A stretch of 44,830 bases of DNA from a virus: IMG/VR virus record IMGVR_UViG_3300024265_000098, positions 1 to 44,830 of that record. The stretch is one strand, 5' to 3'. The position numbers and the translations under genes were made by a program. Under the pieces are notes generated by a model, which saw nothing but the letters and a program-made list of their open reading frames with translations, was not told where the DNA came from and did not search any database. Position 1 is the first letter of the stretch. The number at the start of each line of letters is the position of its first letter. Shown here piece after piece: positions 5,394 through 44,830 of this stretch.

Positions 5394-5903
5394 ATGGGAA
5401 CAGAAAAAGAGCAACTGAGATTTATACGAGTAATCGATCCGAACGTGTTCGATCTGATACCGCGGAAGCTCTTCGAGCAGGTTGAGAGTCTCGAGCCCGC
5501 GCACGTGGATAATTTGATCAAGTACGGTAAGCACATGCTGAACCGGTTCGAGTCGAAGGGCGGGGAAATGGTGCTTGTGCCGAACATTCTGGTCCACGTA
5601 GCCGTAATGGTGGACTCCAATACCAAGATCCACGGGATCTTATGGGCGGAGTTCGATATCGTCGAAGAACTAATCTACGTGCAACTGGCGTCGGTGGAAA
5701 AGGCATATCAAGGCGGGTCCAGGAAGCTCATAACAGATTATCTTTTTGGTCTTGACGTTGACCCGCGGTGCAAGGGCAAGATAAGAATGAACACTGCAAA
5801 GCCGAGAGCTTACGAGCGAGCGGGCTGGAAGCGATCGAAGATGATCATAATGGAGATTGACAATGTGGGCGAAACAGATCCAGATTCGGACGCAGAGGCT
5901 TAG
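5394..5903 (+). CDS. GNAT acetyltransferase-like phage protein
   Basis: Predicted 169 residues from ATG 5394, immediately after a 9-bp repeat array whose GAA(A/C)GG units may act as the ribosome site. The segment IHGILWAEFDIVEELIYVQL followed by a helix (EKAYQGGSRKLITDYLF) and RAYERAGWKRSK resembles the beta4-beta5-alpha core and C-terminal hook of GNAT folds. Similar proteins often sit just upstream of ejection-protein genes in podoviruses. The acidic tail (ETDPDSDAEA) overlaps the next gene by 41 bases. The acetyl-CoA loop is not a clear match, so this could be a structural descendant of the fold. Confidence 0.5.
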   Translation: MGTEKEQLRFIRVIDPNVFDLIPRKLFEQVESLEPAHVDNLIKYGKHMLNRFESKGGEMVLVPNILVHVAVMVDSNTKIHGILWAEFDIVEELIYVQLASVEKAYQGGSRKLITDYLFGLDVDPRCKGKIRMNTAKPRAYERAGWKRSKMIIMEIDNVGETDPDSDAEA

Positions 5904-6837: not shown

Positions 6838-6846
6838 GAGAAAATC

Positions 6847-13700: not shown

Positions 13701-13949
13701 TATCTTTTCCTATCGAGGTGGCGGCTGCAGTCGCTCGACCGCAGGAGGATCGGCGCTGTTGTCGGAGAGGAATTCGGGCCGCCGTTCAAAGCGATCGAGG
13801 GGGTATGGAGCGACGTTAAGAAAGGCGAGATCAACCGTAGCGTCCGCAGTATTCCAATCATCGGCGAGGAATATTACTGGTGGTTCGGCGGGGGGAGTAG
13901 AAAAGGCGAGAGGAATGAATTCCTGGATATTTACGATCCGTTTAATTAA
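7794..13949 (+). CDS. Giant internal virion protein with HEXXH metallopeptidase motif
   Basis: Predicted 2051 residues, the longest gene, read without interruption. Residues ~1-400 hold Gly/Ala-rich helical segments with possible membrane-active stretches (PFLGKALQKTPFLGKLLPK). Residues ~430-850 are charged coiled coil. HEGYH at about residues 1199-1203 fits the HEXXH zinc-peptidase signature, with an acidic stretch (ANEEAEAAAFGEY) ~20 residues later that could give the third ligand. The C-terminal ~700 residues are helical and resemble the tails of large internal core proteins. Such proteins are thought to be ejected into the host with the DNA and to modify the envelope or host proteins. A 9-bp repeat patch is embedded in frame near residue 640. 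Confidence 0.75.
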   Translation: MGLFSGIVEVKNAPITEPTLRPGRAPGIAITPGQTAAPSDSLLARTATGIPTQPQPAPPGMFAEILEKRTGTESGRGFWRALAEDPETKIPFLGGVIQGGRFAGVIQSSRRLSRNDPEEYFRSAAINAQAAALTAGPGQPQNIQEQADALRTKDLQQVENYLEQVNRQYTTAGQVGRIVGDMPAFMIEFLATGGLKKLGEGTAKQIGKRLLKDRATSLAGRAAIGTTAFLSGAALRSAGLPQRGVESVLKRQLPKGITYGPEGEISIQGPGEEPWTSVVKGLGDHYIEILSEQSGEGLQAAAPFLGKALQKTPFLGKLLPKIQKKWLALPANKVKTAADFSTEIGTATGFNGVLGEIGEEFLGDGLRAVFDIDDFGAGKDAGPLERLNAAIERDIENLPVMAAAFAVPGVVRFGAARALGAAEPQRDFRREADAAAAVGGAEAVQAFNRAGGAAGMSLEQLEAQVKFLRDTLGEAPAGQKKSEIIAQITELEDILGQRKSIDLVEKSQAAIEAGAGTKFVSRRSDLLRAAVKSFKEGKQTAEVVQDRLDRLNEGLEEAGIQRPDQITAEEVRPALQEQFRADVAAGEAEADRADVAADAEEAQLNQQLDDMTEALRDERTEERIATEAVRETAEQQVFEGEKGAKVEEEALEARDEFELYTQNIPEASEKEIVQAMLEDGAEPPVALVEKYTDLPGAEAFLEQKRIDQFVPEPPVEQPVTEPDIPGQQVIPEGEEKPPEEMTEEEFVRERPTILMRRIIAQQQAELTKLQARLDKVQGRKKGNAEKRRGIQSQIDRSKERIKLARAANSPETYAKAWDRNFSASTITVEGKPSPNLFKFQPEFLASEHRELLSQPRGVAESAKSTVQKMIEAEVAEELGLTEGTPAATTQERTEEELTGLSKSRRARIKGQTATNILQSEIYQTALEGQDVTEREIDVGFYFVEKSGQGEIDQVIQSVPKGRIRTALKKMFTFDRSDLVKNGGQAISWDVAVQAGFERTQGTEGHLDLTEFAERVKQALEGKKPEPGSRRLNSRAMDTAAEQGEPFVEMMVNKFRMLHNGSTKEEINDMILDVGDRFNIKRSGLIDDMIDGDQIVRLQSLTDAESDEEIDRLAEQQVEAEDVSDAEGAAKAVLEANGIDVHIEQVEIIDEATLADHLPEKPDDDVPFEVRGKPTGAALTTSDRQIILLANGADSQTGYHEGYHVIRPRLTARDHDILARNFANEEAEAAAFGEYAQDKATQKGQIKFIFEKLMRFLRQIKSALTGAGFRTHEQIFFEIAEGTATVADAKAAKVQFERKPGDIQREAEKRARVKAKAARLKAARKPKVSKARLRIKLKDTTPFLRPDLRPLPEEELVRPAVPETKGAAKRFSEEAKLEFRTREKTSLREALSRKAQEYLLGFDRRVEAMSARLEKIHPLLMSKVRRYVFDVDTRTTQLLEQTAPFIKGIKKIKGDDARDLKYALNNNWRAETERLVEKYNLQEEYQALRDVLDAIHEAGNEVGLEILYRGDHFPRRVKDLKGLLRFLDTSDKHSAFSDAIRKRQEQAGGRPLSDNEVTQVVNTLLRGFRVGGVSLSRPGVVKDRSIEEFDRSIENFYFELDESLEMYIQDMIQSITTREFFGKQTSEIAKLRAQESRLRTRLHKTQARTGITKPVTLEKHKSTLARAAEKLREIHEELEKHKNQKLEDSIGYFALQLDLDFEDQAQVFDMLKAIMEPRGLNGATRDYVKLAYVDVLANIPVALTQLEELGLSVYRDNLNAIPAAHKALLKNNGLNLEDIGISDINQYMRDLGLQGIMDKAMFAMRAVDTFGKQTLLNTELARSVRLAKNSPNNAKFVSEMRRVFGDDARDVINDLTAERMTDNVKFLMFSKILDLQPSAITETPEYYAAGGNWRILYMLRQFTLKRMSVLRDKATKTMTGTPSERLEAMADLAKMLAILTAFGVGKDFIKDWYLGKDFDLADSVLDNMLQYLFLSRWRLQSLDRRRIGAVVGEEFGPPFKAIEGVWSDVKKGEINRSVRSIPIIGEEYYWWFGGGSRKGERNEFLDIYDPFN
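9702..9735 (+). repeat. 9-bp repeat patch inside the giant virion gene
   Basis: About 3-4 units of the GTGYGAAGG family lie in the middle of the 2051-codon gene and encode FEGEKGAKV. They sit in the charged coiled-coil section, where an insertion would be tolerated. Confidence 0.6.
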
Positions 13950-25242: not shown

Positions 25243-25268
25243 AAATAGTCAGTAGGAAATAGACAATG
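25243..25268 (+). repeat. Heptamer repeat (AATAGTC type)
   Basis: AAATAGTCAGTAGGAAATAGACAATG runs into the integrase start codon; an imperfect member of the AATAGAC family. Confidence 0.6.
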
Positions 25269-27032: not shown

Positions 27033-27251
27033 ATGGATTATCCGAGTTGGTCATGCCCGGTCCAGGCAAGAATACTGAACGATAGGCTTGTAACTGCGAT
27101 TCAAGTGCCTCCCATGACAACAGCCGAACAAACACAATTCGAGAAGTTATTGAAGATAATCGACAAGCGATACCGCCAATCTAAGAGTAACCGCATGGTG
27201 GAAGAGATCATCGAAGCCATTGAAAGGTCGTTGGGGACAGTTTTGCCGTGA
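27033..27251 (+). CDS. Small hypothetical protein before terminase
   Basis: Predicted 72 residues from ATG 27033, after the repeat. The C-terminal two thirds are helical and basic (EQTQFEKLLKIIDKRYRQSKSNRMVEEIIEAIERS). Its stop overlaps the terminase GTG by three bases, implying translational coupling. It could be a packaging accessory; no family was recognised. Confidence 0.5.
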   Translation: MDYPSWSCPVQARILNDRLVTAIQVPPMTTAEQTQFEKLLKIIDKRYRQSKSNRMVEEIIEAIERSLGTVLP

Positions 27252-28699
27252 GCATATCTGATCAAATTCAGGAGATAGCGGCTTTAGGGCGTAAGGATTA
27301 CGGATGGTTCATGCGTAACGCGCTCGACGTGAAGCCTGAGCACTACTGGGAGGGCATGGAGCGAGTGTGCGCATCCGTGCGGGATAATCCTCAGACAGCT
27401 GTTTCCGCCGGACATGGGGTCTCGAAGACTTATGTGGCCGCCAGGATCGCTTTGACGTTTCTGTATTGCTACGTACCGTCGATCGTGGTCACAACGGCGC
27501 CGAGCGAAGATCAGGTGAAAGGGTTACTCTGGCGGGAGATGCGCGAGGCCCACGCAAACGCCCGTATACCCATGGGCGGTAAGGTCTCAACGCTACAGAT
27601 CGATATGCAGCCGGAAAGCGGACTCAGGTGGTTCGCAATTGGAGTCGCCACCAAGCCCGACACGGTAACAGGTGAGGCAACCAGGCTGCAGGGCTATCAT
27701 TCACCGCATTTCCTATTCATTCTGGACGAAGCGGCTGCTATCCTACCGGAGATATGGAAAGCGGTTAAGCACGTGGGAGGGCCGTTCAAGCGGGTATTGG
27801 CGATCGGCAACGCCACCTCATCAACGGGGGAATTCGTAGCGGCGCTCAAAAGTCCGAATTGGAACCGGCTACAGATATCCGTCAAGGACACGCCGAACTT
27901 CATTAACAGTAATAACGACATTCCGGGCCTGTACGGAACGGAATACGAACGTGATATCCGAACGACTTACGGCGAGGACTCCGACGAATACGCCGTTAGA
28001 GTGCTCGGGGCGATATCTGCAAAGGCGGCCCTCGGCAGTTATTACGGCAGGAAACTGGACGACCTCGAGAGCAAGGGTCGTATCTGTGACTTGGATGCCG
28101 ACCCGCACAAACAAGTTCACATCGTTCGAGATCCCGGTTACACGTCGGCTTTCTGGTTCTTCCAGTTGCTCGACTACGACGTTCATTTCATCAGGTACCA
28201 CGAGGACTCGGGTCTGGGAGTTGAGGATTATGCGAGATATTTCGACGAGTTAAGGCGTGAATGTGGCTATATTTACGGCGATAACATAGTCCCGTGCGAT
28301 ATGGACAACAACGCGGGCCGCGTAATTACAGGGCAGACGGCACTCGAAACGCTGCAGGACCTAGCCATCACTTGCGGCCGCCCCGTGGCGTTACAAGTCG
28401 AGAGGACTGAGATCGAGGGTATCGAGCGGACAGTTAAATTCTTGACCAGGGCCAGGTTCGATAAGACATTGTGTGCGGTTGGGTTAGACCGATTAAGGGG
28501 CTTCCACGAGCGGATCAATAAGCAGATGAGCACGGAGGACCACATCGCCTACACCGGATCCCCGGACAAGGACGGGATCAACGACCACGGCGCCGCCGCT
28601 ATGAGGTATGCCAGTAAGGCCATCGTCGAAGGTAAGGTGGGCGGCGGCAGTATGACGGCCCAGGACGTTGAGGACCTATGGAATGAGGCTAAGAGGTAA
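27248..28699 (+). CDS. terL: Large terminase subunit
   Basis: Predicted 483 residues from GTG 27248. The N-terminal ATPase has a Walker A-like loop (SAGHGVSKT, residues 53-61) and Walker B (FLFILDE, 155-161), followed by a coupling segment (AIGNATSSTGEF). The C-terminal RNase H-like nuclease has acidic residues in RDPGYTS (Asp295), PCDMDNN (Asp351/353) and GINDHGAAAMRY (Asp446), the usual three-carboxylate set. Together they cut concatemeric DNA and pump it through the portal. The domain set is complete and the length is normal. Headful or cos packaging cannot be told from this alone, but the circular map agrees with headful permutation. Confidence 0.93.
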   Translation: MSISDQIQEIAALGRKDYGWFMRNALDVKPEHYWEGMERVCASVRDNPQTAVSAGHGVSKTYVAARIALTFLYCYVPSIVVTTAPSEDQVKGLLWREMREAHANARIPMGGKVSTLQIDMQPESGLRWFAIGVATKPDTVTGEATRLQGYHSPHFLFILDEAAAILPEIWKAVKHVGGPFKRVLAIGNATSSTGEFVAALKSPNWNRLQISVKDTPNFINSNNDIPGLYGTEYERDIRTTYGEDSDEYAVRVLGAISAKAALGSYYGRKLDDLESKGRICDLDADPHKQVHIVRDPGYTSAFWFFQLLDYDVHFIRYHEDSGLGVEDYARYFDELRRECGYIYGDNIVPCDMDNNAGRVITGQTALETLQDLAITCGRPVALQVERTEIEGIERTVKFLTRARFDKTLCAVGLDRLRGFHERINKQMSTEDHIAYTGSPDKDGINDHGAAAMRYASKAIVEGKVGGGSMTAQDVEDLWNEAKR

Positions 28700-30228: not shown

Positions 30229-32205
30229 ATGGCAAGCGATAACGAAAAGGATTTCGTATTAGCGAGAACGGAAACGTTCCAGGCGGCTTTCAACAACGCC
30301 TACGATCTATGGTTCCCATGGATCACAGAGGCGCACACCGACTTCAAGTATTTCATTAAGAACCCGTGGACCAGCGCCGACCTGGTGAAATTCGCCAAGG
30401 AGGGGCGTGAGGTTCTGAACTTCAACATTATCCGTCGAATCGTCAAGATGATTTCCGGGTACGAGCGGAAGAACCGATTATCGCTGCGGATCGGGCCGGC
30501 GGAACTCGGCGATAATCCCGTTGCAAGTCAGTATCAGGCGGCTGTAATGCACCTTATGGAGAATAACGGCGGATACCAGGAAATGTCCGACGCCTTTGAG
30601 CTCGGCGCATTGACAACGGGCGCGAACCTCCTGGAACTGTTCTTCGATCGTCAGGGCGACATTCATTACGGCCGCAAGGCATACAACACATTCCTACTGG
30701 ACCCCGGCTTCACTCGCCGGGATCTGAGCGACTGCAATCATATCATCACTCACGATGAGGGTATGAGCGTCGAAGACATCAAGCTGCTGATTCCGGGCAA
30801 GGAGTCGGAGATAGAGGAAGCTGCCGCCGGCGGGCCGGGACAGTCGTTACCGTTCTCGGCATATCTCGGGCAGGGCAGAGATCCGGAAGGGACTCGGGCG
30901 AACTACTCGACCTTCTGGGAGCGAAATACTCGGCAAGCACAATTCCTGGCCGATAAGGGGACCGGTGAAATAATCGAATGGCAGGGTAAGAAGGCGGACC
31001 TTCAGGCAGCGGTCAACTCAGCTCCCACCAAACTCACGAGCTTTACCGATACCGTCGATACGGTAAAGTTCAGCGCCTTTGTGAACGATCATGAAGTCCA
31101 CAGCGGCGACGACCCGAACGGGATTGACGACTATCCCTACGTCCTGCAGGCGGGTTTCTGGTATCCGGAATACGACGATATGGGCGATAAGCTCCAGGGG
31201 ATTATCAGGCCGCTCAGGGACCCGCAGCGAGAAGTCAGTAAGCGAATGAGCCAGATCCTGACCATTATCGATACCCAGACGACCAGCGGATACGAGGCGG
31301 AGGAAGATGCGTTCGTTAATCCCAAGGATGCTTACAAGGCTGGAAGTGGTAAGGCTATAATACTCAAGGCGGGTGCGTTAAACAAAATCAGGCGCATCCA
31401 AGCCCCTCCCATCCCCGGGGGTTTATTCCAGTTGAACAATGACTTGCAGACCTTTGTAAATACGATTTCCGGCGTCAACGAGCAGTTGTTGGGCAACGAC
31501 GAGATTAAGGGTCAGATCTCCACGTATGTAATGAAGCTTAGGACGGGGCTTTCGTTGGTAACGCTCCAGGACTTGTTCGATCATAACCGCGCGGCCAAGG
31601 CTCAGATCGGTCGAAAGACCGTAAAGGCTATCCAGGCGAACTATTCACGGCAGAGGTTCGAAAGGATCATCGGGGAGCCGGCGCATGCAGACTTCCGCAA
31701 GCAGGACCTGGCCAAATACGACATCGTCCCGCAGGAAGGGCTTTACACAGAGACGCAGAAACAGAGTTTCTTCGTTGAGCTCAGGCAGGCGAAGGCTGAC
31801 GGTATGCCAATCCCGTGGTCGTGGATAGCGACGTATTGGCCGACGCCCCTGGCCCCGAAGCTGCTCGAAGCGATCAAAGAAGCGGAGCAGCGGCAAAACG
31901 CCCAGCAAGCCGAACTGATGGAAGAGAAGAAACTACTCGACTCGATGCGCAGGGCAAAGATCGATAAGGACATTTCCCAAGCCGAAGAGAACCGGGCCAA
32001 CGTCCAGGAGCACGAAGGGGACGCGGCACTTTCACAGATCAAGGCCATCAAAGAGATCCAGGAGATCGAGCAGAACATCCAACAGGGCGATAAGAACCTC
32101 GAGGAAGTCGACTTCAACAGGTTGATGCGGGTATTGGAGTTTTTCCAGGCGAAACAAGAGCGAGAGAAAGCCGCCGCGAGTAAACCGGCACTCGTAACAC
32201 GATAG
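30229..32205 (+). CDS. Portal protein (P22-like)
   Basis: Predicted 658 residues. LNFNIIRRIVKMISGYERKNRLSLRIGP is the N-terminal signature of P22-type portals, and GALTTGANLLELFFDR and TISGVNEQLLGNDEIKGQIS are further characteristic stretches. The last ~100 residues are a helical, charged barrel-like tail (EEKKLLDSMRRAKIDKDISQAEENRANVQEHEG). Twelve copies should form the DNA-translocating vertex and the platform for TerL and tail adaptors. The length suits the family. The start follows a T-run with no Shine-Dalgarno site, so initiation may need upstream readthrough or structure opening. Confidence 0.9.
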   Translation: MASDNEKDFVLARTETFQAAFNNAYDLWFPWITEAHTDFKYFIKNPWTSADLVKFAKEGREVLNFNIIRRIVKMISGYERKNRLSLRIGPAELGDNPVASQYQAAVMHLMENNGGYQEMSDAFELGALTTGANLLELFFDRQGDIHYGRKAYNTFLLDPGFTRRDLSDCNHIITHDEGMSVEDIKLLIPGKESEIEEAAAGGPGQSLPFSAYLGQGRDPEGTRANYSTFWERNTRQAQFLADKGTGEIIEWQGKKADLQAAVNSAPTKLTSFTDTVDTVKFSAFVNDHEVHSGDDPNGIDDYPYVLQAGFWYPEYDDMGDKLQGIIRPLRDPQREVSKRMSQILTIIDTQTTSGYEAEEDAFVNPKDAYKAGSGKAIILKAGALNKIRRIQAPPIPGGLFQLNNDLQTFVNTISGVNEQLLGNDEIKGQISTYVMKLRTGLSLVTLQDLFDHNRAAKAQIGRKTVKAIQANYSRQRFERIIGEPAHADFRKQDLAKYDIVPQEGLYTETQKQSFFVELRQAKADGMPIPWSWIATYWPTPLAPKLLEAIKEAEQRQNAQQAELMEEKKLLDSMRRAKIDKDISQAEENRANVQEHEGDAALSQIKAIKEIQEIEQNIQQGDKNLEEVDFNRLMRVLEFFQAKQEREKAAASKPALVTR

Positions 32206-32925: not shown

Positions 32926-33720
32926 ATGGATAACGAAGGACAGATCATAGTTGAATCGGAAGTGGACTCGTCAATATTGGAAGTTGCTGCACCGGCGGAA
33001 GATGGAGGCATTGAAACCCCGGCGGCCACAGATGCGGCCGAGGGAGCTGCATCCGCAGAGGCGGTCGAGGGCGCTGCGACAGACGGAGCCGTCGAAGGTC
33101 AGACAGTCCCCAAGGAGCGGCTGGACGAAGTTATTGCTAAAAACGCCGAACTGACGAGCCGGCTGGACCTCGTGGAGCAGAACAACGCTCTTGTAGAGGC
33201 CAATACTCAGAAGCCCCAACCTCTCGAGCAGTTTGATATTTACAAAGAGGCCGGCGTCAGTGACGAAGGCAGCGACTCTATTTCCGTAGAGCAGCACCGA
33301 AAGACTCTTGATTACGTCCAGAGGACCCATCAGGCCCAGATCGATGATATCAGGTTCCATCAACAGAACCCTGATTACGTCGATATGGTAGGAACAAACG
33401 AGGGAGCTCGTAAGGGACAGTTTGCCCCGCCTCTGGCGGCGGCAATAAAAGAAAACCCCGCACTATTCGACCAGATCATAAAGAGCGCCAACCCGAAAAT
33501 GGCCGCATTGGCAATCGCACGCTCGGCGGCGGGGAAAGTGCAAAAGCAAGAAAGCACAGAAGGCGAAGACGTGATCGATGAGGCCGTGCGCAACGCAAAA
33601 CGGGTAAAATCCGGACTGACGGTGCGTGGCGGCTCGGGAGTAAGTGAGCAGCACCGGTATCTAACAGAGACCGATGAGGCTTTCGTAGCCCGCGCGAGAA
33701 GGAACGGGGCTAACGTATAA
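32926..33720 (+). CDS. Scaffolding protein
   Basis: Predicted 264 residues; ATG 32926 has AAAGGAA upstream, whereas the GTG at 32893 lacks a site. The N-terminal ~90 residues are acidic and Ala/Glu-rich (PAEDGGIETPAATDAAEGAASAEAVEG), followed by a coiled coil (ERLDEVIAKNAELTSRLDLVEQNNALVEANTQ), then a helical middle and a basic C-terminus (AKRVKSGLTVRGGSG). This is the standard build of scaffolds that nucleate procapsids, and it lies directly before the capsid gene. Confidence 0.75.
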   Translation: MDNEGQIIVESEVDSSILEVAAPAEDGGIETPAATDAAEGAASAEAVEGAATDGAVEGQTVPKERLDEVIAKNAELTSRLDLVEQNNALVEANTQKPQPLEQFDIYKEAGVSDEGSDSISVEQHRKTLDYVQRTHQAQIDDIRFHQQNPDYVDMVGTNEGARKGQFAPPLAAAIKENPALFDQIIKSANPKMAALAIARSAAGKVQKQESTEGEDVIDEAVRNAKRVKSGLTVRGGSGVSEQHRYLTETDEAFVARARRNGANV

Positions 33721-33740: not shown

Positions 33741-34709
33741 ATGGGAATCACAGGCACAAGTATAATCACCCCGGCGGTGAACGCATACTTTTTCAGGCTG
33801 TTACTGATTCGTAACAAGCCGAGATTGATTCACGAAATGTTCGCACAGCGGTTCTCGCTACCGTCCGGTAACGGAAAGTCGGTTGTGTGGCGCCGGTACG
33901 CACAGCTTGCGACGGCTACCGAAGAAGTGGCCGAGGGAGTAACACCGCCCGGTAAGCAACTGTCCAAAACCGATATCCGGGCCACGGTCAGTCAGTACGG
34001 GGATTGGGTCAGTATCACCGACGTTCTGGAGTTCACGGCGGAGAACAACGTTTTGAACTCCGCAGCTTCCGAACTCAACGACCAGATGATGAGAACGGTG
34101 GACGAACTGGCCAGGAACGTTCTGGTCTCGAGCGCCTCGGCGATAACAGCCGATCAGGGCACGCCGGAAGTAACAGCGCTCAACGACGTCGATATCAACC
34201 AGGTCACGAACACATTGCAGAACTCCGACGCACTTCCCGTCGCTCCGATGGTGGGAGCGAGTACGGGGCAAGGAACGGCTCCTATCCAGGAAGCGTACTG
34301 GGTTATGATGAACACCGAGCTCAATACCGACTTGAAGATGGTCTCCGGATACCTGTCGACTGCTGAGTACCCCGGGCAGAGAAGCGTGGTTATGAGCGAG
34401 CGGGGTAGTGTTGAAGAGGCCCGATTCCTGGCCTCCAGTATCGCCCATAAGCAGGGCTCGGCCACGGCGGCCTTCCCGGCGACGGCGGGAACGTATTACT
34501 ACCTGCCGTTCATCGCCCGCAACGCCTACGGTGTGGTGGATCTTGAAAAGGCAAACGCCAAGATGATCATCCACGCACGGGGAACCGCAGGCGCGGCCGA
34601 TCCGTTGAACCAGCGTCAGTCGATGGCCTGGAAACTGATGAACGTGGCTCGTATCCTCAACGATCTGAACGTGATTATTTTGAAGGTTACGAAGAGAAGC
34701 GATACGTAA
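33741..34709 (+). CDS. Major capsid protein (N4-gp56-like)
   Basis: Predicted 322 residues; AAGGGAAG seven bases before ATG 33741. SVVWRRYAQLATATEEVAEGVTPPGKQLSKTDIRATVSQYGDWVSITD matches the N-terminal arm and spine helix region of N4-gp56-type HK97-fold capsid proteins, and FIARNAYGVVDLEKANAKMIIHARG matches their conserved C-terminal strands. It forms the icosahedral shell around the scaffold. No protease gene is evident nearby, so the scaffold may exit intact. Confidence 0.88.
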   Translation: MGITGTSIITPAVNAYFFRLLLIRNKPRLIHEMFAQRFSLPSGNGKSVVWRRYAQLATATEEVAEGVTPPGKQLSKTDIRATVSQYGDWVSITDVLEFTAENNVLNSAASELNDQMMRTVDELARNVLVSSASAITADQGTPEVTALNDVDINQVTNTLQNSDALPVAPMVGASTGQGTAPIQEAYWVMMNTELNTDLKMVSGYLSTAEYPGQRSVVMSERGSVEEARFLASSIAHKQGSATAAFPATAGTYYYLPFIARNAYGVVDLEKANAKMIIHARGTAGAADPLNQRQSMAWKLMNVARILNDLNVIILKVTKRSDT

Positions 34710-36497: not shown

Positions 36498-38090
36498 ATG
36501 AAGCGTATAACGATTATTCTACTGGCGGTCTTAATGGCCGCACCGGCGTTCGGGGTGATCCCGATAACCAGGCGAAATGTATCGACTTCCCGACTACTCG
36601 ATACCCTGCTACGGGACAGGATAGGGACTCTGGACAGCCAGGTATCCGTCCTGCAGACGGGGGCGACTTCCAGTTCCGGGGTGACGTATTACGTCGATAG
36701 CGCCAACGGCGCCGATACATTCACCGGTAAGACCTGGACAACGGCAAAGGCGACGGTCGAGGGTGCGATGGATATATCCGCCCTGACCAATAAAGACACG
36801 ATCCTTGTCAGAGAAGGCTACTCGGAGACGCAGTCAGTGACAGGGGCGGTTCTGACGGCCGACGTTGCCGGCGTAACCATTAAAGGGCTCGGCGCAGGAA
36901 GGTTGCAGCCGAAGTTCATATTGTCGCATACAGGGGCGACGGTAGACGTAACCGCCGACAATGTGACGTTCGACAATTTCCAGATCGACGCGACCGGTGT
37001 TGACTCGGTGAATACCCCAATCAATCTGAGCGGTGTGGGTGTGCGGTTCGTCAACTGTTACTTGAGGCTCGCCGATACGGTGGGCCAGGCGGACTTGGGC
37101 ATATCGGTCGGGCTTGCCGACGGCGATTCGAACGACTTGATAATCGACAACTGCATATTCCACGCTCCGAACGGAGGGTTGGGGACGGCGCTTACTCTGG
37201 ACTTCGACCACGAAAACGTGATTGTCAGCAACTCGATATTTAACGTCGACGCCAGTACGGCTGTCATAGATATCCCGACGGCCGGCAACGCTCAGGTGAA
37301 TTTCACCGTCGACAACTGTATAATCAATAGCCTGAATGCCGACGAGTTTGCGATCCAGGCGAATGGGACGGGTAACACAGGGACAATCAAGTCATGTATT
37401 CTGATCTCCGACGCCGAGGCGACTATCCTGGACGCGGGCGGCTTGCAGGTCAGTGAAGATACGCGGCTGGTAGTTACAGGCAACGGCGAGCCGGGCGTAC
37501 TGCCGGCGGATATGGGTCTGGTGGACTTGCTCGGCGATTTCACCGGCCCGGACGACGGTGCCGCCCAGGACGATAACGTTAAGGCGTCGCTGGACCTGGC
37601 CCATACCGATCTTGACGCTATATTAGCCCAAGCGGCTTCGTTCAGCAGCCCAAATTACCTGGCGGTCTCGACAGGGGTATTCGATACGACGGGCACGTGG
37701 AGCACCGTTGCTTCTCATGAGATCGCAACGGTCACCGGGCTTGTCAGGATGATAATCATCCCCGAATGCACGGTAAGCGTGGACTCGGTCAGTAATACTG
37801 GCACTATAGAGCTCGGCGACGAAGTCGGGTCGACCAGTATAATCGCCGCCTCCACTCTCGGCGCCGGAGTAATGGTCGCGGGTGAACTCTGGACGGATGC
37901 AACGTTGACAAGAACCATCCTCACACAGACACAGATTGACGCCACTACGATAGTTGTGGGTCAGGGCCAGGATATAGGATATGAAGTGAAGACCAACGCA
38001 CTGTCGGCAGGGACGATTGTCTTCCACATATTCTGGACACCACTCGACTCCACCGGCGCAGTAGCCGCCGGGGCGGGCGGGACGCTGTAA
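36498..38090 (+). CDS. Secreted beta-helix protein, tailspike-like
   Basis: Predicted 530 residues; GAGAGG upstream of ATG 36498. MKRITIILLAVLMAAPAFG is a Sec signal peptide. YYVDSANGADTFTGKTWTTAKATVEGAM is the entry motif common to parallel beta-helix proteins. Repeating strands follow (VTIKGLGAG, VTFDNFQID, VRFVNCYLRL, LIIDNCIFHA, VIVSNSIFN, FTVDNCIIN, IKSCILIS) for about eight coils. The C-terminal third is a different beta domain. The fold is shared by tailspikes and carbohydrate-active proteins. The signal peptide suggests export before or instead of virion assembly. Confidence 0.75.
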   Translation: MKRITIILLAVLMAAPAFGVIPITRRNVSTSRLLDTLLRDRIGTLDSQVSVLQTGATSSSGVTYYVDSANGADTFTGKTWTTAKATVEGAMDISALTNKDTILVREGYSETQSVTGAVLTADVAGVTIKGLGAGRLQPKFILSHTGATVDVTADNVTFDNFQIDATGVDSVNTPINLSGVGVRFVNCYLRLADTVGQADLGISVGLADGDSNDLIIDNCIFHAPNGGLGTALTLDFDHENVIVSNSIFNVDASTAVIDIPTAGNAQVNFTVDNCIINSLNADEFAIQANGTGNTGTIKSCILISDAEATILDAGGLQVSEDTRLVVTGNGEPGVLPADMGLVDLLGDFTGPDDGAAQDDNVKASLDLAHTDLDAILAQAASFSSPNYLAVSTGVFDTTGTWSTVASHEIATVTGLVRMIIIPECTVSVDSVSNTGTIELGDEVGSTSIIAASTLGAGVMVAGELWTDATLTRTILTQTQIDATTIVVGQGQDIGYEVKTNALSAGTIVFHIFWTPLDSTGAVAAGAGGTL

Positions 38091-38166
38091 ACGATATCAG
38101 TGTGCAGGCCGGGCGGCTTGCTGGATTGCCGCCCGGCATTTGACAAACGAAATACGAGATACGAGC

Positions 38167-39273
38167 ATGGACTGGACACTGGCAGAGATCAGAAGTAACG
38201 GGTTCAACGGGGTGCGCGAGTTGACGGGCAAGAAGTCAACTTCCAACCCCACCGACCCTGCACTCACAATCGCAATCAACGATTTCTACCTGAACAGGTT
38301 CCCGCACGAAGTCAAACCGGAAGAACTCAAGAGCACCTTTTCCCAGGCGACGTCGGGGACTGACACGGGCCAGTATCCGGTATCTTCAGACGTTGCTATC
38401 CTCGAAGAGCCGGCGACTATTAACGGCGTGCCGCTGGGCGGATCTTTTAGTTCGCCGTTCTGGTTCGGTCATGCCGGCTTTGGCGGTAGTGGCAGTGGTT
38501 TCTTTTACCAGGATCGGAGTTCGTTCTTTGCGAGGTATCCCGACGAAAAGACGACGGGCGTGGCATTTACACTAACGGCCCCAACGCTATCAATCGGGAT
38601 ATCGAATACCGCAGCGGTGACGAATGCTGCCTTTTCGTACAGAATCAAGCCTCACTCGTATTCGAAAGTAACGGCAGAAACGGCATTGTCGGGCGATACC
38701 GTCCCCCAGAGCAAATACGGGGCCTGGCGGCTGCAAATCGAATCGGACGGCACGATTGCCATACAACCGGCCGATAACAACGCCACCGGCTACGATACAG
38801 CGGCCCAGGCTGTTCAGGACATACCCGCTGAGAGCACTGAGGCCGCCGCCATGGGCTTTGTGACCGCAATCAATACTGGCGGAACGTTCATACCGGGGAC
38901 CACCGCACTGAGCACGGGAGGAACGGTAACGGTCACGTACACCGACGGATTCAATAGTAACAGAGGCCGGCCGGAAGCCCTCCTGCTCGACGGGCAGATC
39001 CTGTACGCCAGACCGATCCCCAACGACGTTTTCATAATTGAAATGCAACAATTCGCAAAGCCGACGGCCTTGGTAGCCGAGAGCGACAAGGTCACGCTTC
39101 CTGAATGGGGACCGGTGGTCGCTTTTGGAACGGCCCTGGAGATCCTGATCGGCAGTAGCGACGACGCTAGAATGGCCGAACTAACGCAGGGGTACCAATA
39201 TTATCTGAACCTAGTGACCAGGAAAGTCGCAATGCAGCTTTCCACGAACCAAACTACGATACCAAGATGGTAA
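38167..39273 (+). CDS. Tail or head-tail adaptor protein
   Basis: Predicted 368 residues; ATG 38167 is chosen over TTG 38140, although neither has a strong ribosome site. DPALTIAINDFYLNRFPHEVKPEELKSTF at the N-terminus and DDARMAELTQGYQYYLNLVTRKVAMQLSTNQTTIPRW at the C-terminus match the helical ends of connector proteins of P22-like and related short-tailed phages. A central inserted beta domain is larger than usual. It should join the portal to the tail. Confidence 0.65.
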   Translation: MDWTLAEIRSNGFNGVRELTGKKSTSNPTDPALTIAINDFYLNRFPHEVKPEELKSTFSQATSGTDTGQYPVSSDVAILEEPATINGVPLGGSFSSPFWFGHAGFGGSGSGFFYQDRSSFFARYPDEKTTGVAFTLTAPTLSIGISNTAAVTNAAFSYRIKPHSYSKVTAETALSGDTVPQSKYGAWRLQIESDGTIAIQPADNNATGYDTAAQAVQDIPAESTEAAAMGFVTAINTGGTFIPGTTALSTGGTVTVTYTDGFNSNRGRPEALLLDGQILYARPIPNDVFIIEMQQFAKPTALVAESDKVTLPEWGPVVAFGTALEILIGSSDDARMAELTQGYQYYLNLVTRKVAMQLSTNQTTIPRW

Positions 39274-39283
39274 GGAGCGAACT

Positions 39284-39613
39284 ATGAGAACAATGTTACT
39301 GGCGATGATCGTGATCGGTCTGGCGGGGTGCAAGACGATTGAGCGATATGAAAACAAAGTGAATCTGCCGAAGAACGTTTACACCCAGCCGATAGACCCG
39401 AACGACCAAGCATATAGCGGGCTTGTCCGAATGACGCCGGCGAGGGAAAAGGCTTTCGGGCCGAGCGAGCGGAACCTTGTTCTATCAAATTTGATTGATG
39501 TTGTGCGAAGGGTGGGACTTCTTGAAAAAGGCGTTCTGAAAAATATAGAGGACATTAAAGCAAACCAAAAAGACATCAAAAAGGTAAAGGACCATGAAGA
39601 CGATAAGAATTGA
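39284..39613 (+). CDS. Lipoprotein in the tail gene cluster
   Basis: Predicted 109 residues; TAAGGAG before ATG 39284. MRTMLLAMIVIGLAGC ends in lipobox LAGC, so Cys16 should be lipidated. The mature protein has an N-terminal extended part (VNLPKNVYTQPIDPNDQAYSG) and a C-terminal coiled coil (NIEDIKANQKDIKKVKDHED). A lipid-anchored coiled coil could span the periplasm. It overlaps the next gene by 20 bases. Confidence 0.6.
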   Translation: MRTMLLAMIVIGLAGCKTIERYENKVNLPKNVYTQPIDPNDQAYSGLVRMTPAREKAFGPSERNLVLSNLIDVVRRVGLLEKGVLKNIEDIKANQKDIKKVKDHEDDKN

Positions 39614-40052
39614 GTCGAGAGCAGGGGCATTGTTGTGTCTATTGGTGGTTCTACTCGTACTCGCAGGGGGAATGGCGAGTCGGGACTTCCGAACGCGAGG
39701 CGAGTCGGTCGGTAAGATCAGCCTCACCGAACAGTCCTGGGCATCGGCCGAGAGCGGCGCTCTGACCGGAACGATAACACTGGTGGGTAGGTGCGAGCAG
39801 GTGGAAGTCGACGTGGCGGAAAATACCACGAACGGTATCACCTTCACAGTGGCGCTCACAACGGCGGACGGCGCCGCTCTGTTCTCGCAGGCGGCGATAG
39901 CCGATAACGGGTCGACGTTATTCAAGGCGACGAGCGACGCGACGGACTTCGATGCGTTCCTTGCCGCCGAGATTGTCACATTCACAATTACACCATCCGG
40001 CGCGCCGGGGGCAACGGGGGCGACTGTGAACGTCGGGGTTTACCTGGAATAG
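39594..40052 (+). CDS. Secreted or virion beta-domain protein
   Basis: Predicted 152 residues from ATG 39594 (AAAGGACC upstream). A basic start (MKTIRIESRAG) precedes a hydrophobic signal segment (ALLCLLVVLLVLAGGMAS). The rest is a single beta-sandwich-like domain (GTITLVGRCEQVEVDVAENTTNGITFTVALTT) with alternating Thr/Ala, close in style to small phage fibre or head-fibre modules. Function unknown. Confidence 0.6.
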   Translation: MKTIRIESRAGALLCLLVVLLVLAGGMASRDFRTRGESVGKISLTEQSWASAESGALTGTITLVGRCEQVEVDVAENTTNGITFTVALTTADGAALFSQAAIADNGSTLFKATSDATDFDAFLAAEIVTFTITPSGAPGATGATVNVGVYLE

Positions 40053-40063
40053 AGGTTTGCGAC

Positions 40064-40762
40064 ATGGCTTATGACAAAAACAGACCGGCGACGAGCGAAC
40101 CGGTTAAGACCGGGTGGCCCGTCCTGATCACGAATCAGCAGGCTATCGAGGCGGCGATCGTACAGGACCACGACTTTACGACCGGCGGCAGCCAGACGGG
40201 TAAGCATAACCGGGCGACGCTGCTCGACGTTGCCGGCGATGAGGCGGGGGTTGCCGGCGCATTGACAATCTGGAACGATGCCGGGACGTTCAAATATCGG
40301 AACACTACAGGAACGGTGCGAAAGATCAGCGCCGACGGCGATGTAATACCGGCGGCAACCAAGATGTGGTTCTACGCTGACAGCGCACCGACGGGATGGA
40401 CGATCGACGGCACGCCGTCAGACGAGCTCTTGGGAATCAAAGGCGGCGCCACGTACACCACAGGCGGCGTCCAGGCGGGAACGTGGACCCAGCCGAACCA
40501 CGCGCACACAACGCCCGATCACTCGCTGACGGCAGCTGAAAACGGCGCCCATACGCACACTTTCCAAGTGGCCAGAGATAATACCGGCTCGGGGCCCAAT
40601 CGTGCAAGCGCCTCTAATAACGCTTACGAGAGTAGCGATACGACTGAATCCAGCGGTAGCGGCGACGCGCATAATCACGGTAATACGGGCAACTCGGCAA
40701 CTGCTAATACATGGCGGCCGCTGGCCAGGGTGGGGATAATCTGCTCGAAGGATGCGTATTAA
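40064..40762 (+). CDS. Tail-fibre tip protein with collar-like domain
   Basis: Predicted 232 residues; GAGG upstream of ATG 40064. No signal peptide. The N-terminal part (KTGWPVLITNQQAIEAAI) is a virion-binding region. From about residue 105, KMWFYADSAPTGWTIDGTP, a histidine-rich centre (PNHAHTTPDHSL, NGAHTHTF, DAHNHGN) and the closing WRPLARVGIICSKDAY match the phage collar/tip domain, in which histidine pairs bind metal in a needle-like trimer (as in T4 gp12 tips). It is a likely receptor-binding tip. Confidence 0.8.
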   Translation: MAYDKNRPATSEPVKTGWPVLITNQQAIEAAIVQDHDFTTGGSQTGKHNRATLLDVAGDEAGVAGALTIWNDAGTFKYRNTTGTVRKISADGDVIPAATKMWFYADSAPTGWTIDGTPSDELLGIKGGATYTTGGVQAGTWTQPNHAHTTPDHSLTAAENGAHTHTFQVARDNTGSGPNRASASNNAYESSDTTESSGSGDAHNHGNTGNSATANTWRPLARVGIICSKDAY

Positions 40763-40767
40763 CGGCA

Positions 40768-40811
40768 GGACACAGAACACAGAACACAGGATACAGGATG
40801 CAGGATACATG
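40768..40811 (+). repeat. Heptamer repeat (CAGAACA / CAGGATA type)
   Basis: About six tandem 7-base units shift from ACAGAAC to ACAGGAT. The ATG at 40798 arises within the array. The sister array is at 16763-16793. Confidence 0.8.
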
Positions 40812-41085
40812 CGATTTCCCGAGTTGTGCGGTAGCGAAAAGGCTGCGGTTCAAGAGCGCGGGGCAGTGTTTCAATAATGTGCAGAACGTTTGGTTGGATT
40901 CCAAGACCGGGCAAAAGAAAGAAATCAGCGACTGCGCTCCGAAGCGAACAATGATGATGGTAATGGACTTATCGAACCGACTAACGGGTGTGCAGCAGAG
41001 TCAGGAGCAGCAGAGAAACGTCTTGAAGCCGCTGGAAGAACTCGCCCGGATCACAATGGAAGAACACAAACTCTTACGATCGTAA
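40798..41085 (+). CDS. Small protein with repeat-born start
   Basis: Predicted 95 residues from ATG 40798, which sits inside the heptamer repeat. CDFPSCAVAKRLRFKSAGQCFNNVQNVW is a Cys-containing head and MDLSNRLTGVQQSQEQQRNVLKPLEELARIT a coiled coil. No strong ribosome site. Its stop overlaps ATG 41085 (TAATG). Function unknown; it may be a tail chaperone by position. Confidence 0.45.
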   Translation: MQDTCDFPSCAVAKRLRFKSAGQCFNNVQNVWLDSKTGQKKEISDCAPKRTMMMVMDLSNRLTGVQQSQEQQRNVLKPLEELARITMEEHKLLRS

Positions 41086-43184
41086 TGGCATACAAACCAT
41101 TTCCAATCTACGATATGAAGGGCGGTAAGGTCACGGCAAGGGAGCCATGGTTGATACCGCGAGACGCCTTTAAGACCATCCGAGGCGGGTATCTTAAACG
41201 CGGCGTTCTGGAAAAGCGACGTGGCACAACAATATTCGGTCAGATCGTCAGTGTGAACACAGCGACGAAAGTCCCGACACTCAGTACGAACCCGGTAATG
41301 GGTATTGTCAATTACTTCAACGGCGACACCGAGACATTACTGACAATGGACAAGAACCGGGTGAATAAGTTCGAATCGAACATTGTCACGGGAGTGGAAA
41401 TCACAGCCTTTGCCGACGGCGGCGGCGGGCAGGTGGTTGTCACGGCGGCGGCTCACGGGCTGAGTGACGACGATATCGTCACGATCACGGGCGACAACGA
41501 CAATAACGGCACATTCAACGTTCAGAACAAGAACGCCGGCGACTTCGAGATAACCGATACATTCGTCGCCACAGGAACCGGGCTGGTATCTCAGGAGCAG
41601 TTCGTCGACTTGACCAGGTTTAGCGTCAGGTACAAAGGTAAGGCCGGCCAGAACTACAATCCACTCGTAAATGAAGTGGTTAAAGGGGCGACGTCAGGCG
41701 CGACCGGAACGGTGAAGTCGAATATTGTGGATTCAGGCAGCGTTGGAGACGAAGACGCGGCGGGAACGATCGTATTTGCCAACGGATCGATCACGGGAAC
41801 ATTCCAGGCGAACGAAGAACTGCAGGAAAACGGAACGCCCGCCAATATCGCGGGCCAGTCGGATACGACCAACGCAGCCTCGGACGACGAGTTCACAGGA
41901 GATAATACGGAATTCGTCCAAATAGCAAACTGGAACGACGTCGGGTATCTGACAAACGACAACGATGTTATCCGCAAGTACAACGGAACCGACCTATCCA
42001 GGTTCCATATAGATCTCGACGTCGAAGGCGGTCCGGACAACGACGTGGCCAGGTGCGGGCTGATATTTGTTGTCAGGAGCCGACTGGTAATATTCGATAC
42101 GACCGAACGAGGGACCAGGCGCAGGCAACGTGGCCGGTTCTCGAATATAGAAGCGCCCGGTATATGGAGTGACGACGACTTTCAAGACTGCCCCACGGAG
42201 GCGACTATCACAGGTGGATCGTGGCTGGGCAATGAACTGTATATATTCTTCGCAAACGGATCCGAGGGTGGGGAAGTGTGGCGATGGACGTATCAACACG
42301 ATCCGGATCTGCCGTTCGCCTGGGACCGGGTCGATAAGATCGAAGGCGGCTACGCGCGAGGGGCGCTGGTGGAGACCAAGGTGCGCGGCGGAGTCGACCA
42401 GATAATAACAGTCGCCCAGGAAAACTTGATCGGTATGGACGGAACGCGGGCCTCTACGATCGATAACAAGATCCCCGACTTTGTTCTGTCATGGCTGCAA
42501 ATGTCGATAGCTTACAGTCAGGGATTTCTATTGAAAGCCGAGAGGCAAGTCCTCATATCTTACGCATCCGAAGAGGCCGCCGCGCACGCCGACGGCAATA
42601 CATATCCGGACAGCATTCTATATTTGAACTACGACGACCTGAACTATGCGACGGCGGTCCTGGACGTCCACGTTTTCGGCAAGTCGAGACTGGAGTCTTC
42701 GTTGACATTTGCCGATATTGCAGAGGCGTTCGAAGATGTCGACTTTGCTCCGGACGATGTGGGGCTCCAGGCGGGGGCCCCGACGAACCTGTACGGCAAC
42801 CACGCCGGTAAGATATTCAAATTGAACAATTCCCTGGCGGACGACGGGGCCGCCATACTATTCGACGTGGTCTCGGCGGATCTTAACCCGTTCGTTCTGC
42901 AAGGATTCGAGGCCCGCCTGGGGTTCATCGATTTTCTTTGCTCCGTGGATGAGGCGGCGTCATTCGAGGTGCAGTCATTCCTGGATAACGACTCGGTGAG
43001 ATTTCAGACCGATACGGTAACGTGTGAGGCCGTGGGACCGTCGAAAGAACTCAGTTGGCACAGGGTGGACGTCAACGCGGTCGGTTTCGCGCATAGAATA
43101 CAACTGGGCAACAACGCCACGGGCAACCGGCCGAGGATACACGCCGTAGTGCCGTGGTTCGAACAGGCGGGGAGAATTATTTAA
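41085..43184 (+). CDS. Tail stabilisation / gp10-like protein
   Basis: Predicted 699 residues; ATG 41085 overlaps the previous stop, and the longer frame from 40890 lies out of phase within that gene. It starts with KPFPIYDMKGGKVTAREPWLIPRDAFKTIRGGYLKRGVLEKRRG, a pattern of P22 gp10-like packaged-DNA stabilisation proteins. Blade-like repeats follow (LIFVVRSRLVIFDT, GSWLGNELYIFFANG, EVWRWTY), suggesting a beta-propeller core, and ATSGATGTV and AHGLSDDDIVTITG insertions resemble structural beta modules. It should plug the portal after packaging and anchor the tail needle or fibres. The length fits with insertions. Confidence 0.7.
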   Translation: MAYKPFPIYDMKGGKVTAREPWLIPRDAFKTIRGGYLKRGVLEKRRGTTIFGQIVSVNTATKVPTLSTNPVMGIVNYFNGDTETLLTMDKNRVNKFESNIVTGVEITAFADGGGGQVVVTAAAHGLSDDDIVTITGDNDNNGTFNVQNKNAGDFEITDTFVATGTGLVSQEQFVDLTRFSVRYKGKAGQNYNPLVNEVVKGATSGATGTVKSNIVDSGSVGDEDAAGTIVFANGSITGTFQANEELQENGTPANIAGQSDTTNAASDDEFTGDNTEFVQIANWNDVGYLTNDNDVIRKYNGTDLSRFHIDLDVEGGPDNDVARCGLIFVVRSRLVIFDTTERGTRRRQRGRFSNIEAPGIWSDDDFQDCPTEATITGGSWLGNELYIFFANGSEGGEVWRWTYQHDPDLPFAWDRVDKIEGGYARGALVETKVRGGVDQIITVAQENLIGMDGTRASTIDNKIPDFVLSWLQMSIAYSQGFLLKAERQVLISYASEEAAAHADGNTYPDSILYLNYDDLNYATAVLDVHVFGKSRLESSLTFADIAEAFEDVDFAPDDVGLQAGAPTNLYGNHAGKIFKLNNSLADDGAAILFDVVSADLNPFVLQGFEARLGFIDFLCSVDEAASFEVQSFLDNDSVRFQTDTVTCEAVGPSKELSWHRVDVNAVGFAHRIQLGNNATGNRPRIHAVVPWFEQAGRII

Positions 43185-43525
43185 TGGAAAATCTCCCTAC
43201 ATTCAAATTTCGGGACCGAAGCCCGGGCGAGGACCTCGGCGAATATGTGGACGCACTCAAAAGTTATACGGATGAATCCCTGAACCAGGTGCGACTGAGG
43301 ACCAACTGGCTCTTGGAGCGTGTGCATGTAGTCACTGAAACAAACGGGGTGAGCGATCGCAACGGAACACGGTTCACGGTCTTCGAGCTGGTTCCGCCGA
43401 AGAAAACGAAGAACACGGACGGTAATTTCAGGTTGAGAATGGTTCCGCACGGCTCGAGCTTCGATTTACAAATAGAGGTGAGGGTGGACGGGGTATGGCT
43501 GGACGTTAAGAAATATCATGGTTAA
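43184..43525 (+). CDS. Hypothetical tail-region protein
   Basis: Predicted 113 residues, TAATG overlap with the previous gene. LPTFKFRDRSPGEDLGEYVDALKSYTDESLNQVRLRTNWLLERV is a helical N-terminal segment and the rest is beta (TRFTVFELVPPKKT, NFRLRMVPHGSSFDLQIEVRVDGVWLDV). It may be a short adaptor fibre or tail-completion protein. It overlaps the next gene by eight bases. Confidence 0.55.
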   Translation: MENLPTFKFRDRSPGEDLGEYVDALKSYTDESLNQVRLRTNWLLERVHVVTETNGVSDRNGTRFTVFELVPPKKTKNTDGNFRLRMVPHGSSFDLQIEVRVDGVWLDVKKYHG

Positions 43526-44606
43526 GAGTATCGTACAGCTCGGCATAGTGTTACTGACGGCCGCCACGGCGATCGGGGCGTACAGCGGCACTCCGTCTCG
43601 TTATGACGAAGAGAATACGCGGGGCAACTTCTTACTATCGGGCGACGAGAAGAATATCGTCTGGTTCAACGGCACGAACTGGGTAGCTTTTCGGGCAGCC
43701 AGCGATATGGTGTCGAATACAGCGTACACATGGCCAATCGCTGACGGCGATCCCGGCGGCGTGCTTGAAACAAACGGACTCGGGGGTCTGACGTGGGCGG
43801 ACAGTCCGTCTGAAAAGGTGTGGGCGTTTATGAGCCGGGACGCATCGAGTGGAACCAACTATATCGGTGGGTTTTATAAATTCGGGGCAACGGACAACGA
43901 CTTCAACCCGTCGATCACGTTCGGTACGGTCAACGCATCCTATGCGGCTCATTTCTTCCTGGTGCAGGCGGCGGGAGCGGGCGGCGGAACCGATACGGTC
44001 ATTCGAATTACCGGGACGACAATAAACGATCAGGGCGTTCGGGTAACTGCGGTGGATGTGGATATTGCAGTAGACGACGCCGGAGCGGCGAATACTTATT
44101 ACGAAACGCCTGAAAAGTGGCTCGGTCAGGTGACTATAGCGAAGCAATCCGGGCCGGACCTGTTGTGCAATTTTGGCTTCTGTAAATACTGGGACGATAA
44201 CAACACAGACTTTAAGGTTGTGGGTATAGAGGCTACGTGGCTGGGCGCTAAGAACGACAATGCTCCCGATATCCAACTGCACCATCACAGAGCGGGCGGG
44301 TGGACGTACAATAACGCAGCGCCGCCGGACCCCCCTACCGAAGTTGCTTCGATGGCGACTGATCACGATACCGAGATATTTATCAAGGCGGCCGAAGAAG
44401 GCGCGTGGAAGAGAGACAATCTGGACGTGAATATACGCGGTGGCAGCAGTGAAGGGACCATAATCGAACTGACTACCACGACGAACCGGACGTATGCGAT
44501 TGGAAATTTCATGATCAGAATTACGCCATTTGGCGACGTCACCATGATATACGAAGACGGCAACACGATGATATACGAAGACGGCAACACAATGGTATAC
44601 CAGTAG
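43518..44606 (+). CDS. Secreted appendage-like protein with tandem C-terminal repeat
   Basis: Predicted 362 residues from ATG 43518. MVKSIVQLGIVLLTAATAIGAYSG is a signal peptide. After it, NIVWFNGTNWVAFRAASDMVSNTAYTWPIADGDPGGVLETNGLGGLTW is a small module typical of fibre proteins. The central region is beta-rich and lectin-like in style. The C-terminus has the octapeptide MIYEDGNT twice and a partial third copy, from 24-base direct repeats. The role is probably surface attachment; the signal peptide is unusual for a virion protein. Confidence 0.65.
   Translation: MVKSIVQLGIVLLTAATAIGAYSGTPSRYDEENTRGNFLLSGDEKNIVWFNGTNWVAFRAASDMVSNTAYTWPIADGDPGGVLETNGLGGLTWADSPSEKVWAFMSRDASSGTNYIGGFYKFGATDNDFNPSITFGTVNASYAAHFFLVQAAGAGGGTDTVIRITGTTINDQGVRVTAVDVDIAVDDAGAANTYYETPEKWLGQVTIAKQSGPDLLCNFGFCKYWDDNNTDFKVVGIEATWLGAKNDNAPDIQLHHHRAGGWTYNNAAPPDPPTEVASMATDHDTEIFIKAAEEGAWKRDNLDVNIRGGSSEGTIIELTTTTNRTYAIGNFMIRITPFGDVTMIYEDGNTMIYEDGNTMVYQ
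44541..44603 (+). repeat. 24-bp direct repeat, about 2.6 copies
   Basis: Two nearly identical 24-base units (44541-44564 and 44565-44588) and a partial third encode MIYEDGNT-type octapeptides at the end of the secreted appendage gene, the kind of array that varies by slippage. Confidence 0.85.
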
Positions 44607-44613
44607 GTGCTTT

Positions 44614-44830
44614 ATGAAGAACTTCAAATCGATAGTGCTGATATTGATGCTTGCAGGCGTTGGTTATGGCGCCGACGTGAAGTGGACGGCGGTTAGTGAA
44701 CTGACCGCCATTGCCGACGCGGACATTCTCCTGGTAGTAGACGATGTGGCGGGTACTCCCACCTCCAAGAGAATCACCGTTCTGAACTTCTTCGATACGA
44801 TCGACACATCCGCGAAACTGGCTGCAATCC
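44614..44830 (+). CDS. Tail-fibre-like protein, N-terminal part (continues at 44-2646)
   Basis: The ATG at 44614 opens a frame that runs off the window and continues in phase at base 44. Bases 44614-44704 plus 44-2646 give 2694 bases, an 897-residue protein. The first residues are basic (MKNFK), followed by a hydrophobic stretch (about residues 6-18) and a small-residue cleavage region (GYGA-D), a typical Sec signal peptide. A TAGGTG lies just upstream as a weak ribosome site. The start follows the 43518-44606 gene by seven bases, so the two are probably co-transcribed. A Sec signal on a tail-fibre-like protein is unusual. Confidence 0.85.
   Translation, partial: MKNFKSIVLILMLAGVGYGADVKWTAVSELTAIADADILLVVDDVAGTPTSKRITVLNFFDTIDTSAKLAAI
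44705..44830 (+). repeat. Terminal direct repeat, right copy (circular overlap)
   Basis: Identical to 44-169. The sequence just upstream (44614-44704) supplies the natural N-terminus of the gene that continues at 44-2646, so this copy has the authentic flank. Confidence 0.93.

Follow-up and report, generated by a model that had tools for sequence, protein, structure and literature searches.

The window analysed here is the complete IMG/VR virus record IMGVR_UViG_3300024265_000098, 44,830 bases from an uncultured podophage, in which many genes of the tail and appendage block begin with an export signal (leader) of the Sec type. We found that in this phage and its relatives such leaders were common on the outer tail parts and absent from the packaging, head, neck, and ejection proteins. 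The leaders are, with high confidence, real and functional Sec-type signals, for which export and cleavage are predicted from the sequence. On balance, opinion being evenly poised, we hypothesized that the virion is assembled in two compartments, with a cytoplasmic core and Sec-exported surface parts that would be joined when the inner membrane fails. The packaging, head, tail-block, and ejection genes of the window described below are all on the plus strand.

Leaders were called with a rule-based Sec scorer (positive n-region, uncharged hydrophobic core, small residue at -1, lipobox; threshold 3.8). It called 17 of 18 exported genes of E. coli K-12, the only miss being the Tat protein HyaA, and none of 52 cytosolic genes. 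In other phages, it called 1 of 109 structural genes (T7, P22, lambda, KPP25, Mae-JY35, ctMEh928, and ctDrO704) and 2 of 41 genes in the tail regions of P-GSP1, HTVC106P, and ct52p938. The control rate in these ten phages was thus 3/150, compared with 7 of the 11 genes in the window block that runs from 36498 across the record ends to 4503. In the cyanophage P-GSP1, a tail-region gene of 118 residues (L117 13097-13453) has a clear leader.

All seven products on which the original prediction had placed export signals were called by the scorer, six as signal peptidase I type, with n-region, hydrophobic core, and small residue at -1, and one by its lipobox. The gene at 36498..38090, in the slot between the capsid and neck genes, encodes a leader (MKRITIILLAVLMAAPAFG; score 5.38), a coiled-coil segment, and a probable right-handed beta-helix spike. 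A small coiled-coil lipoprotein (39284..39613) carries an LAGC lipobox (MRTMLLAMIVIGLAGC), matching [LVI][ASTVIG][GAS]C after the hydrophobic core, and is weakly similar to small exported proteins of other records. It is followed by a leader-bearing small beta protein assigned by hhalign to family F17 (39594..40052; score 5.82). The next gene after the fibre base encodes a fibre-like protein (43518..44606; score 4.45), for which neither a database match nor a tblastn match among named phages was obtained. At 44614..44830 lies a leader with the start of a tail fibre (score 4.18). The stretch 44698-44830 matches 38-169 apart from one mismatch and one gap, so the record is circular or terminally redundant, and the open reading frame at 44614 therefore joins 170..2646 (tail fibre phrog_1833, E 1.4e-4) into one fibre of 897 residues; the predicted leader was upheld, on a gene that spans the record ends. 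This fibre and a leader-bearing one of L044 are 47% identical over 68 residues that include the leader. The two remaining products are a Pfam Beta_helix protein (2655..4244; score 4.91; PF13229 26 bits, cut-off 25.9) and a protein of 85 residues (4246..4503; score 5.29) with a leader, a short ectodomain, and a C-terminal membrane helix read from its sequence. Of these products, which the original prediction took for tail or appendage parts, those at 4246 and 39284 are not plainly appendages. Four tail proteins of the same block were leaderless in the window: the neck protein (38140..39273), the collar (40064..40762), the nozzle (41085..43184), and the fibre base (43184..43525).

Two side observations concern these genes. 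A loose motif, FGDxxxxRL, recurs in small exported or lipoprotein coiled-coil proteins (window 39284-39613, L005 4540-4860, L012 10019-10525, L014 4121-4609, and L049 4601-4924), which could be spanins or assembly factors. One contig near-identical to the window was found, from the same sample, and there the 44614 fibre (L022 6041-7372) stops after 443 codons; the difference from the 897-residue copy is a small indel between the two assemblies.

Relatives were collected by a two-sequence terminase alignment, which gave records with 52-57% identical terminases, and by a neck alignment, which gave 39 loci; a capsid profile matched 22 of the 26 tested records behind the latter. The counts cover 26 relatives and the window, 27 records in total. 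Left out were G001 (the same phage), G017 (gene list identical to the G030 locus), the short contigs L009, L010, L039, L040, L043, and L051, the distant L005 and L015-L021, and the weak neck matches L064-L071; L026-L032 were also outside the analysis.

None of the 207 core proteins in these records carried a leader, even when any upstream start was permitted. The core comprised the terminase large subunit (27248..28699 in the window; 0/21), the portal (30229..32205; 0/26), a scaffold-like gene between portal and capsid, named by its position (32926..33720; 0/26), the major capsid protein, named by position and family (33741..34709; 0/27), the families H1 (0/27), H2 (0/19), and H2b (0/7), the neck protein (0/28), and three putative ejection or internal virion proteins, also named by position (5863..13949; 0/11, 0/6, and 0/9). 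The neck profile had no match in the PDB, nor did the neck protein give a tblastn match among named phages. In contrast, eleven appendage families had leaders in 54 of 101 members with upstream starts permitted: collar/fibre0 (20/29), F13 (6/8), SPK15, the family of 36498 (6/8), F17 (2/7), F18 (4/7), F21 (4/6), F25 (3/5), F29 (4/4), F32 (3/3), base (1/8), and SPK10 (1/16). A separate family, P135, had a leader in 1 of 17. With default starts, and with the nozzle and P135 counted as core, the comparison was 2/242 against 52/101 (Fisher 1e-30, a descriptive value, because the genes share ancestry). Of all genes lying between the neck and ejection genes, 63/140 had leaders, as against 0/181 packaging, head, and neck genes and 11/179 beyond the block, again among genes of shared ancestry.

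Leader states clustered by genome (permutation p 0.007); for this test, the leader state of six genes was entered manually from the upstream-start reading, two missed window genes were added in the same way, and the G014 collar was entered as "base0". On the core tree, the minimum number of state changes was four for the collar, three for F17, two each for F13 and SPK15, one each for F18 and F21, and four for the nozzle. A single ancestral leader that was merely inherited is ruled out by these repeated changes. A simulation of leader drift covered only three pairs, picked for leaders in both members and hence biased. Outside the counted records, L065 and L066 have four consecutive leader-bearing genes after the neck, one of them beta-helix-like by eye (the L065 copy had no tblastn match among named phages). 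These two are linked to the clade only through part of the neck protein, with no capsid match, and since they carry the four leader genes, the trait seems to have more than one origin. No leader gene at threshold followed the neck in L068 and L070. In distant phages with 36-44% identical terminases, small leader-bearing genes lie between terminase and portal (L005 4540-5429 and L015 2084-2635).

The positions at which the leaders end were examined by homology. The window collar is a leaderless orthologue (MAYDKNRPA) of proteins that carry a leader in most relatives. Eighteen collar leaders end directly before a conserved [AGVD][WF]D, a register that comes from homology and is independent of the scorer. 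The residue at -1 is G in 14, S in two, A in one, and Q in one, so that 17 of 18 have G, S, or A; at -3 there are six C, four F, four L, two A, one V, and one G. The leaderless collars begin M-AWD (G012 and G028), MC-AWD (G027), or M-AYD (window), where a leader-bearing collar can read ...G|AWD. With the junction so fixed, signal peptidase and methionine aminopeptidase would leave near-identical N-termini. The product of 39594 aligned with F17 (two leader-bearing and five leaderless members) by hhalign at 99.8%, E 4e-29; the family starts at residue 26-27, and the leader extends 25-26 residues beyond the leaderless F17 start. Comparison of 39594 with L005 found nothing. The original prediction had regarded homologues without leaders as telling against it, and such homologues do exist (L008, MW202647, G012, G027, and G028); nevertheless, the mosaic of leader states with exact junctions argues for the grafting and loss of a working signal rather than for misread starts.

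The nozzle provided a second set of junctions. The 41085 product matched the PDB nozzles 8zkk/8zkm (E 2e-10), its model had a mean predicted local distance difference test score (pLDDT) of 77, and its 26 best Foldseek hits were all phage tail or virion entries, the fold matches including SU10, Pa223, VP1, T7 gp12, and P22 gp10. Judged by this predicted fold and by the PDB profile match, the family is a tail nozzle. The nozzles of the window and of L047 gave no tblastn match among named phages. The known podophage nozzles (T7 gp12, P22 gp10, VP1 gp16, SU10, and Pa223) share its fold and its neighbourhood after the neck genes; in T7 and P22 the scorer found all structural proteins leaderless, whereas here 4 of 17 phages carry one on the nozzle (G020, G024, G029, and G033; the G027 nozzle is split in two pieces, which makes 18 sequences for 17 phages). 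These leaders end immediately before the EY[EQ]PFLI with which the leaderless orthologues start. The fibre base, leaderless in the window, has a leader in all four nozzle-leader phages and in none of 11 others (Fisher p 0.0007), and in G024 both have leaders though the genes are not adjacent. In these four phages, the base and a longer fibre or spike domain make up a single fusion protein. In most others, the base has about 100 residues and the leader is on the separate next gene, the fibre; an exception is G018, with a leaderless base of 439 residues.

The spike slot showed signals of two kinds. The model of 36498 had a mean pLDDT of 52.6, with roughly residues 60-330 mostly at 70-90 and the rest poor; the confident part models as a beta-helix, and the best Foldseek matches were beta-helix lyases and phage fibres. 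Podovirus ctMEh928 (MW202647) has a homologue of 36498 directly after its capsid gene (33.5% identity), but it is leaderless, as are all 13 structural genes of that phage; this homologue and that of L008 lack both the leader and the segment that follows it. In 13 records, the protein in the spike slot begins with an N-domain of about 50-130 residues; a lysine-rich patch and a hydrophobic stretch come next, ahead of a segment shared among them and resembling AYxxTDIxxEIASNPExL. An internal hydrophobic stretch in the first 220 residues occurred in 0 of 207 core proteins and in one nozzle out of 18, the stretch there being the leader itself. Beta-helix domains are found, as here, in P22-like tailspikes and pectate-lyase-type spikes, but P22 gp9 was leaderless in the scorer control, whereas the spikes here have N-terminal or internal signals.

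According to the hypothesis of two-compartment assembly, the portal, capsid, neck, and ejection proteins, and usually the nozzle and base, would be synthesized in the cytoplasm and put together there, whereas Sec would export the spikes, collar, small beta proteins, and distal fibres, mostly by way of cleavable signals. The signal peptidase cut would yield the same N-terminus as in the leaderless orthologues, and the exported parts would be stored in the periplasm, already folded and oligomeric. Once the inner membrane is ruptured by the phage at lysis, the cores would meet the periplasmic parts, and the virion would be completed at that site or in the lysate. In phages whose base is part of an exported fibre, the nozzle and the base itself would also leave the cytoplasm. 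Export, cleavage, oligomerization, and joining at lysis are steps that we infer from the leaders, whereas the leaders, their restriction to outer parts, their junctions, and the coordination of nozzle and base are read directly from the genes. Tailspikes and fibres can be added in vitro to finished particles, as with P22 gp9 and T4. The earlier idea that released virions are coated outside thus survives in modified form, the outer parts having leaders, the core none, and partner leaders being coordinated.

Several points weigh against this hypothesis. All visible tail genes of G002 lack leaders, so the trait is dispensable. Cysteine makes up 1.08% of the mature appendages, compared with 0.61% of leaderless orthologues and 0.70% of the core (cut sites being uncertain); many periplasmic proteins are low in cysteine, and these are not. 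Four of the 18 collars have phenylalanine at -3, which is atypical for signal peptidase I. The link between nozzle and base comes down to four pairs that are independent on the core tree and agree in direction (sign test p 0.125). Most window appendages match no named family, and their presence in the virion is suggested by synteny, folds, and families, in a phage that is uncultured together with its host.

A wider form of the hypothesis is only tentative: that this tailed-phage clade and, independently, at least one unrelated lineage make two-compartment virions, that the boundary between core and exported parts shifts as a unit, and that spikes with internal signals come to span the inner membrane. 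The boundary might, speculatively, lie at the base-fibre joint in most phages and at the neck-nozzle joint in four. Equally speculative is that the spike N-domain docks on the filled head in the cytoplasm with the receptor-binding part already in the periplasm.

The exported copies could instead act on the host, which we consider unlikely: fibres and spikes on the infected or lysogenic cell would block receptors, clear surface sugars, or exclude superinfection, and virions would be supplied otherwise or not at all. Beta-helix and lectin-like domains are present, the phage may be temperate given an XerC/XerA-like tyrosine recombinase (25266-26159), and lambda Lom and Bor, both called by the scorer, are exported proteins that act in this way. 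Like these genes, Lom, Bor, and spanin-type proteins are late or lysogenic genes with a signal peptide or lipobox, but they are host-envelope proteins, whereas the parts in the window read as virion parts. Moreover, collar and nozzle have leaders too, and the nozzle has no known use at the cell surface; the predicted mature N-termini match leaderless orthologues; and none of the four phages was noticed to carry an additional nozzle or base gene without a leader, although no dedicated search was made.

Somewhat less probable is a role for the hydrophobic N-terminus as a membrane anchor that stays uncut and tethers nascent tail parts to the inner membrane, with assembly there or at a membrane-bound site. 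The 13 spikes in which a cytoplasmic-type N-domain precedes an internal hydrophobic stretch resemble type II membrane proteins, and the virion-binding domains of spikes are usually N-terminal. On the other hand, the N-terminal leader stretches are short (about 10-16 residues) with a small residue at -1, and their register matches the leaderless starts, which fits cleavage better.

An unusual host was also proposed, and this we regard as improbable. Here the leaders would answer a demand of the host, such as a member of the Planctomycetes-Verrucomicrobia-Chlamydiae (PVC) group or another exosortase-bearing bacterium, with a crowded or compartmented cytoplasm or intracellular receptors. Leaders do cluster by genome, and the unrelated L065 and L066 have them on four genes after the neck. 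The close relative G013 (L072 2648-3229), the nearest complete one, encodes a leader-bearing protein ending VPEPATILLL...RR, a PEP-CTERM-like tail that hints at an exosortase-bearing host; exosortase hosts are often PVC-group bacteria. Nothing shows an unusual cell plan; the sole hint is this one protein in one phage, its TIGR02595 match being below the cut-off (15.6 bits, cut-off 16), and a single terminase scan of host genome contigs gave no host, only one weak match in an Actinomycetales metagenome-assembled genome.

We rate as least probable that the leaders have no function and reflect wrongly called starts or hydrophobic stretches arising by chance. Although the caller is rule-based and a few of the starts are poor (no good Shine-Dalgarno sequence precedes 43518, and some nozzle leaders begin with TTG or GTG), the counts in core and control genes, the exact junctions, and the coordination of partner genes speak against it, and mis-called starts as such are ruled out by the leaderless core under any upstream start.

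To our knowledge, tailed phages are assumed to finish their virions in the cytoplasm. Inoviridae coat proteins have Sec signals and reside in the inner membrane before assembly, and these phages are extruded without lysis. The likeness to Inoviridae lies in Sec-signalled virion proteins; those phages have no terminase, portal, or nozzle, whereas the window has all three and is not filamentous. A limited search of the open-licence PubMed Central literature, in the parts available to it, turned up no description of tailed phages with Sec leaders on their tail parts. For the IMG sample numbers it gave one paper, in which sample 3300009788 is listed with metagenomes screened for magnetotactic bacteria. 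In the portions consulted, phage target proteins of diversity-generating retroelements are described as lacking signal peptides (PMC6199706), and for a Klebsiella phage no signal peptides were predicted, such peptides being named elsewhere for lysis proteins (PMC12989515).

In the window, the genes run in the order terminase (27248), portal (30229), scaffold-like gene, capsid (33741), two head genes, spike (36498), and neck (38140), followed by small genes, collar (40064), nozzle (41085), base (43184), and the fibres at 43518 and 44614; then come the beta-helix protein (2655), the small membrane protein (4246), and the three putative ejection genes. A gene downstream of the fibres (4500-5378, family 26) is kept in four records. 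Two more small membrane or lipoprotein candidates (21580-21930 and 22204-22503) lie outside the tail block. A Radical-SAM-like protein (14842-15654), with very weak NCBIfam matches, recurs in two relatives. Short tandem repeats of 9-base units such as GTTTGAAGG or GGTGAGAAG occur near gene ends (5310-5392, 22521-22540, 26989-27022, and 35975-36007) and give some open reading frames collagen-like KG repeat ends. Bases 1-47 are the reverse complement of 44719-44765, and the record starts with a palindrome (1-104), which is probably an assembly chimera at the circle join.

If virions of this clade are indeed built in two compartments, their assembly, the timing of lysis, and the folding of receptor-binding proteins would be tied to the secretion system of the host, and this would also account for how the fibres of a phage are prevented from binding receptors inside the cell. 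Leaders on fibres with none on core genes would be a genome signature for the same strategy. Annotation pipelines may mislabel such fibres as host surface proteins. The natural pairs of leader-bearing and leaderless orthologues make the strategy directly testable.

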